Positions 53,579 through 53,621 of a stretch of DNA of 64,000 nt are shown here, one piece after another (within the stretch, counting starts at the first letter, position 1; each line of letters starts with the position of its first letter). The stretch is from contig CM077827.1 of NCBI GenBank assembly GCA_039720395.1, positions 11,818,099 through 11,882,098 of the forward strand, given 5' to 3'. This DNA is from Liquidambar formosana. Lineage: Eukaryota > Streptophyta > Magnoliopsida > Saxifragales > Altingiaceae. A program made the translations under genes and the position numbers. The notes beneath the pieces were generated by a model that was not told the DNA's origin, did not search any database, and saw only the letters and a list, made by a program, of their open reading frames with translations.

Positions 53579-53621
53579 GATATGGGTGCCTATAGGCTTT
53601 GCCTAGAACCTTCCCATATCG
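53579..53621 (+). other. Hairpin 3, copy B
   Basis: CGATATGGG / CCCATATCG, nine perfect pairs, enclosing CCTATAGG. Reference state for the covariation comparison. Confidence 0.88.

Follow-up and report, generated by a model that had tools for sequence, protein, structure and literature searches.

The window analysed here, a stretch of 64,000 nucleotides (64 kb) of contig CM077827.1 of Liquidambar formosana, contains a series of long terminal repeats (LTRs) that carry a real and conserved hairpin. The elements carrying this hairpin are Ty3/gypsy retrotransposons of the Ogre lineage, and their LTRs start at the 5′ side with TGTCACACC or TGTAGACACC and end with CACA at the 3′ side. The LTRs, the hairpin regions of the lettered copies and a primer-site-like sequence inside the LTR are listed below. 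The family labels are our own, were taken from the letters of the hairpin, and left unassigned 9 of the 117 matches in the wider set described further on.

50553–53827 (+), LTR with copy B, TGTCACACC...GTCCACA, with flanks CTAGG and CCAGG (one mismatch)
11719–14784 (+), solo LTR with copy A, flanked by a 5-bp target site duplication (CTAAG) and lying within the copy D LTR
14540–14616 (+), hairpin region of copy A, family 1; two inner-end pairs of the outer stem lost
17496–17573 (+), hairpin region of copy D, family 2
61047–61124 (−), hairpin region of copy F, family 2; one outer-stem pair lost
48472–48549 (−), hairpin region of copy G, family 3; has CCTATGGA where most observed copies of this family have CCTATGGG
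30726–30802 (+), hairpin region of copy H, family 4
10822–10898 (−), hairpin region of copy E, family 4 by its stem
31173–31237 (−), short-loop relative; outer stem and TGCCT/ACCTT kept, neither upper helix nor palindrome present
53759–53768 (+), TGGCGACTCC within both the LTR and the conserved island 53729–53778; its ten letters are identical to the beginning of the primer binding site that follows other LTRs

The TGGCGACTCC sequence also occurs inside other LTRs of the window, at 14723–14732 (+), 17681–17690 (+) and 60927–60936 (−), about 50–120 nt ahead of the LTR end. Since the solo LTRs with intact duplications (A and D) contain it, this internal copy is LTR sequence. These two solo LTRs are nested at 11642–17807, where that of copy A (CTAAG) lies inside the LTR of copy D (TATAT duplication), and copy F represents the unoccupied counterpart. 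A TGGCGACTCC-type sequence resembling a primer binding site was also seen 2–4 nt past the LTR end at loci L134, L136, L143 and L146 of the same genome (four of the 24 shown out of 28 loci). The primer tRNA of Ogre is presumably tRNA-Arg. The stretch L149, downstream of the L136 LTR, gave matches to RVT_1, RT_RNaseH, RVT_3 (the second RNase H) and rve (integrase), a gag match slightly under the cut-off, and an antisense plant mobile domain (PMD) at L149:8695-9471 (−) with an E value of 1.5e-9. It has two of the features expected of Ogre, namely the RT–RNase H–integrase arrangement with an additional RNase H (aRH), and the extra reading frame with the plant mobile domain, which PMC6317226 reports for 57% of Ogre elements. 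The elements resemble the Ogre/Tat elements of that paper (Neumann et al. 2019, PMC6317226) in their gag-like, RT, RNase H, second RNase H, integrase and antisense plant mobile domain regions, as well as in their 5-bp target site duplications and LTRs of about 3.1–3.3 kb; the difference is that the words “hairpin” and “palindrom” are absent from its text. Elsewhere in the window, a bacterial-type small-subunit rRNA match is located at 29780–30035 (+), best aligned at about 29890–30015, in the LTR region of copy H, and it is perhaps organelle DNA. The window also has tandem arrays, at 34564–35694 and 54666–55189, with repeat periods near 162 and 81 bases.

The hairpin of copy B, which belongs to family 1, is located at 53578–53621 (+) and consists of an outer helix, an internal loop, an upper helix and the terminal loop TTT, as follows.

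53578–53586 with 53613–53621 (+), outer helix of nine pairs, CGATATGGG/CCCATATCG, confirmed by a sequence check
53587–53592 and 53606–53612 (+), internal-loop strands TGCCTA and GAACCTT
53593–53597 with 53601–53605 (+), upper helix of five pairs, TAGGC/GCCTA, closed by the loop TTT
53589–53596 (+), CCTATAGG, made up of the internal-loop strand's final four bases and the first four of the upper helix
53622–53640 (+), conserved tail TAACTTAGCCTCCGAATCC, which closes the conserved island 53540–53640

The nine-pair stem of the original prediction agrees with this structure, apart from its start, which is one base earlier than the predicted 53579. In the folds, the loop above it is not open. The minimum-energy folds of copies B, A, D, H, E and F, which are six of the seven long-loop copies, hold there a five-pair helix TAGGn/nCCTA in the forms TAGGC/GCCTA, TAGGA/TCCTA or TAGGT/GCCTA. 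This helix is missing from the minimum-energy fold of copy G, the top of which folds in another way, and an alternative register of the inner stem competes in the folds of copy F. When the stability of the folds was compared with that of 200 dinucleotide shuffles, none of the shuffles was as good for six of the seven long-loop copies and 2 of 200 folded as well as copy G, while the short-loop copy at 31197 was unremarkable, being equalled or surpassed by 40 of 200. In folds of the leader through to the primer site, both helices paired with a probability near 1 in four of four copies, except for one outer pair lost in L136. In folds of the LTR only (n = 4), the probabilities were near 1 for copies B and D, near 0.5 for the inner pairs of the outer stem of copy F, and 0.80–0.92 for the upper helix of copy H.

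The structure had been reported as eight LTR copies in three families. The data showed that seven of them are long-loop copies that align as one element, while the eighth, at 31197 (−), is a distant short-loop relative, and that the long-loop copies counted by their hairpin letters make four families. A covariance model (R1) built from the seven long-loop window copies recovered all seven at E values of 3.4e-26 or better, which is a match by construction, and detected the short-loop copy at 31173–31237 (−) with an E value of 1.2e-5, the next match in the window being at E 0.06. A set of 18 short-loop rows, made up of the copy in the window, L218 and 16 of the 40 scored places, represents a fifth family, in which TGCCT (17 of 18 rows), ACCTT (16 of 18) and the outer stem are kept, as judged by eye. 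Most of these rows have a GTGGGG/CCCCAC stem followed by TAACC, and they lack the upper helix. We read the upper helix as an addition onto this simpler short-loop form, and infer the direction of the change.

To describe covariation beyond the window, a wider set of 117 matches, with 95 distinct rows, was collected by combining the window with 95 loci of this genome (718 Mb assembly). All copies come from this one genome and were located by similarity to the window copies, with 40 candidates scored out of 1760–2424 per long-loop query and 40 out of 556 for the short-loop query; L121, L151, L171 and L196, which repeat window copies, and L149, which has no match, were left out. In the seven window copies, outer pairs 1, 4 and 5 change on both sides together, as had been predicted, and upper pair 5 is the fourth pair with a double-sided change. 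In the 95 distinct rows, such changes were observed at outer pairs 1, 4 and 5 and upper pairs 2 and 5, each in 12 to 40 rows, and at a sixth pair in two rows. Pairing was found in 97.9% of the 1315 cells, compared with at most 51.8% in slid registers. Covariation over the 95 distinct rows is clear by score, because the value of 0.307 compares with 0.161 ± 0.007 in shuffles and was reached by none of 500 of them, the best slid register giving 0.139. Double-change cells numbered 120 versus 39 in shuffles. Pairs with any double change number six, which is ordinary in shuffles (reached by 192 of 500), and hence the weight rests on the cells and the score. The rows come from an alignment fitted to the model and are not events; we read about five family-level double changes in them.

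When paired by eye, the hairpin form commonest in each family (19, 17, 6 and 12 copies for the four) has all 14 pairs. The internal loop is near-invariant, with UGCCUA in 113 and GAACCUU in 109 of the 114 copies that have the upper helix. When 12 sequences from the four families were compared, the cross-family identity was about 0.7–0.9 (windows of 20) in the island 53540–53640, mostly 0.65–0.89 with a dip to about 0.5 in the island 53265–53428, and 0.70–0.86 in the island 53729–53778, with 0.86 at 53749–53768 around TGGCGACTCC; in the 3′ part of the LTR outside these three islands it was about 0.1–0.65. In the strand test, G·U/U·G cells outnumbered A·C/C·A cells 51 to 21 in the 117 rows and 43 to 20 in the 50 distinct stems, and the two were equal (11 and 11) when each pair and type was counted once. 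Hence, the wobble counts weakly favor the sense strand.

The hairpin lies upstream of the primer binding site, about 190–260 nt before the LTR end (192–258 nt as measured from the hairpin end in copies A, B and D). These data support the view that a conserved, covarying structure is present in plant retrotransposon LTRs upstream of the primer binding site; the structure itself is predicted and backed by covariation, and its conservation and its place are established. It had further been argued that the stem lies downstream of the TATA box and is, hence, in the transcript. As regards the sequence close upstream, this argument holds for one of the four families, family 2, in which TATAAA is present there in 22 of 22 copies. 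In family 4 AATAAA is found at that place (26 of 27 copies), and in families 1 and 3 (28 copies) neither motif is conserved close upstream. The upstream scan, in which 600 nt or more of sequence before the hairpin was available for only 10 of the 30 family 1 copies, gave no conserved TATA for families 1 and 4, and no TATA or AATAAA landmark common to all families within 1300 nt upstream (20-nt bins, at least 40% of copies). Because the TATA sequence is conserved close upstream in one family only, the argument does not extend to copy B; a transcript that begins anywhere farther upstream in the LTR would nevertheless include the hairpin. In family 3, 26 of 28 copies have the sequence TATATA some 820 nt ahead of the hairpin, and it is a possible core promoter of that family.

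Other structures were noticed in the same part of the LTR. About 210 nt upstream, at 53326–53368 (+) and equivalent places, there is a second covarying hairpin with a CTACGT/ACGTAG outer stem and an inner stem that is either CCATGTA/TGCATGG or CCTTACA/TGTAAGG. For this upstream hairpin, compared in 23 of the 84 listed stretches, 96.7% of cells are paired and the score is 0.239 versus 0.142 in shuffles (reached by 0 of 500), with double changes in two pairs only, a number that 483 of 500 shuffles reach. At L181:832-957 (−) and L189:2248-2335 (−), part of the upstream hairpin region runs straight into the lower one, as if the sequence between had been deleted. An inverted repeat, CCTAGGATAC-TAA-GTATCCTAGG, is located at 53395–53417 (+) and followed by a pyrimidine-rich run; many copies in families 1 and 2 have it at full length, and many in families 3 and 4 have a shortened form. 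A GGAGTC/GACTCC pairing was considered as a closing stem near the LTR end, and it was rejected for its inconsistent pairing among copies.

We give about an even chance to the explanation that the structure is a cis-acting RNA hairpin of Ogre LTRs, the internal loop of which is recognized, probably for packaging or reverse transcription. The nine-pair outer helix would then present the near-invariant internal loop UGCCUA/GAACCUU, which would be capped in the four families by the covarying five-pair helix. The hairpin would act in sense transcripts, as part of the leader that precedes the primer binding site, and the internal loop rather than the palindrome would be the recognized feature, with the CCTATAGG palindrome arising as a by-product of the internal-loop strand adjoining the upper helix. 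The most likely reader of the internal loop would be the Gag/nucleocapsid protein of the element, which could select genomic RNA for packaging, or alternatively it could be the reverse-transcription machinery.

A broader proposal, which we hold tentatively as possible, is that the whole 3′ part of the LTR is a lineage-wide modular RNA domain, made of two covarying hairpins, separated by an inverted repeat that has 10 pairs in copy B, and of a further primer-site copy near the LTR end. The internal loop of the lower hairpin could then be a packaging or initiation signal that tells genomic from spliced or messenger RNA, and the upper helix and the palindrome could have been added later to a short-loop ancestor.

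It is unlikely, in our estimate, that the hairpin is a 3′-end-processing element, which from its position 20–30 nt behind an A-rich motif would place or hide the cleavage/poly(A) site and mark the R/U5 border. The block before the stem is indeed conserved and A-rich, most commonly AATTAAA in family 1, TATAAAT in family 2, AATCAAA in family 3 and AAATAAA in family 4, and is followed by AGAGACC; plant poly(A) signals are loose in sequence, which also counts for this possibility. However, the canonical AATAAA is conserved there in family 4 alone (26 of 27), and 3′-end processing by itself leaves the near-invariant internal loop unexplained.

We regard as quite improbable a joint role of the hairpin, the internal TGGCGACTCC and the primer binding site after the LTR as one domain for the primer or for the initiation of reverse transcription. 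Although TGGCGACTCC lies in a conserved LTR island (0.86 at 53749–53768) and is identical to the beginning of the primer binding site, the GGAGTC sequence able to pair with either site is absent from some copies and has pairing probabilities of 0.00–0.65, and the one fold shown, that of L136, has zero pairs joining the hairpin to either site.

The proposal that an exposed CCTATAGG palindrome starts the dimerization of genomic RNA by kissing loops, as in HIV-1, Ty1 or Ty3, appears distinctly improbable. The palindrome had been described as kept in most copies, which is correct in general (81 of 117 matches); among the eight window copies, copy G (48496, −) has CCTATGGA and the 31197 copy has no palindrome. 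The remaining octamers are CCTATGGG in 29 matches and other forms in 7, three of which lack the upper helix. In the window, CCTATAGG occurs eight times, two of them (15498 and 46251) outside hairpins. Its reading as a self-complementary dimerization loop is not supported, as its second half is the 5′ strand of the covarying upper helix. In the predicted fold four of the eight bases are paired in this helix rather than exposed in an apical loop, and opening the octamer costs 6.9–8.0 kcal/mol per hairpin in families 1, 2 and 4 and 10.2 kcal/mol in family 3, a cost that applies to each of the two partners in a nearest-neighbor model without tertiary or protein effects. The octamer position 6 is G in 30 of the 114 copies with the upper helix. 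In these A-to-G copies the palindromic partner at position 3 is T in 30 of 30, so that none is matched, while in the helix the partner has become C in 20 and is T in the other 10, giving a G·U pair. The fact that this change is compensated in the helix and never in the palindrome speaks against a dimerization loop, as does the lack of the palindrome in the short-loop family. On the other hand, the changed octamer remains self-complementary as RNA through two G·U pairs (duplex energy of −9.8 versus −10.4 kcal/mol), which keeps some probability for the weakened dimerization hypothesis. Predicted extended homodimers are 2–9 kcal/mol better than two monomers, which may hold for many hairpins. In Ty3 leader RNA, according to PMC11381356, a short palindrome in the apical part of a hairpin is needed for dimers in vitro. 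Hence, of the dimerization or packaging signal originally suggested, dimerization by the palindrome is not upheld, and packaging is possible through the near-invariant internal loop; the hairpin fails as a dimerization-loop hairpin on the two features examined, exposure of the palindrome and matching changes that keep it self-complementary, yet may work as a packaging element.

There is very little chance that the hairpin is a functionless ancestral inverted repeat kept only through family relatedness, because, even though all copies are related and from one genome, many have unpaired changes, sequence counts are not event counts and the strand test is weak, the double changes keep every pair in the commonest hairpins of four families while the LTR outside the islands has an identity of about 0.1–0.65, and 97.9% of cells pair versus at most 51.8% in slid registers.

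Ty1 kissing loops reportedly involve a dimerization hairpin that contains a palindrome and lies in the 5′ portion of the genomic RNA. The same likeness holds for the retroviral and Ty3 dimerization hairpins (Ty3 PAL6, PMC11381356), while the Ogre palindrome differs in being half inside a covarying helix, in having changes that follow the helix, and in its putative place in the transcript. For the explanation in which the internal loop is recognized, the nearest worked-out cases are MMTV (PMC8096270), Ty1 and Ty3 (PMC4974528, PMC11381356) and BARE (PMC3735527). The MMTV packaging signal is similar in having a structured leader in which Gag targets an unpaired motif and the primer site, Gag binding being a presumed likeness in the case of Ogre. 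The MMTV motif is a purine loop in a stem–loop that bears its dimerization site, whereas the Ogre hairpin has a mixed internal loop and is located in the LTR, upstream of the primer site. Dimerization and packaging signals have also been proposed for the plant LTR retrotransposon BARE of barley, which differs in belonging to the Copia superfamily and is likened here by description, not by sequence (PMC3735527).

Searches beyond these systems were negative within their scope. With Rfam 15, no family reached the gathering score at the hairpin, and the only match in the window was the small-subunit rRNA piece elsewhere. The specific hairpin pattern had no match in viral contigs, and among the 120 matches listed for the general pattern GGGTGCCT..ACCTTCCC none had CGTAAC in the 40 nt behind it and none had TGGCGACTC. 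As a negative control, R1 was run on 100 of these 120 listed viral loci, and the best E value was 0.22. No published description of this hairpin was found in the literature, which is a weak negative as most subscription journals were outside the search.

LTR retrotransposons make up a large share of many plant genomes, and little seems to be known about how their genomic RNA is selected for packaging. A hairpin with a near-invariant internal loop and covariation over four families provides a small, testable target for this question. It also illustrates that an eye-catching palindrome can be the by-product of a helix, and that covariation can tell it apart from a dimerization loop.
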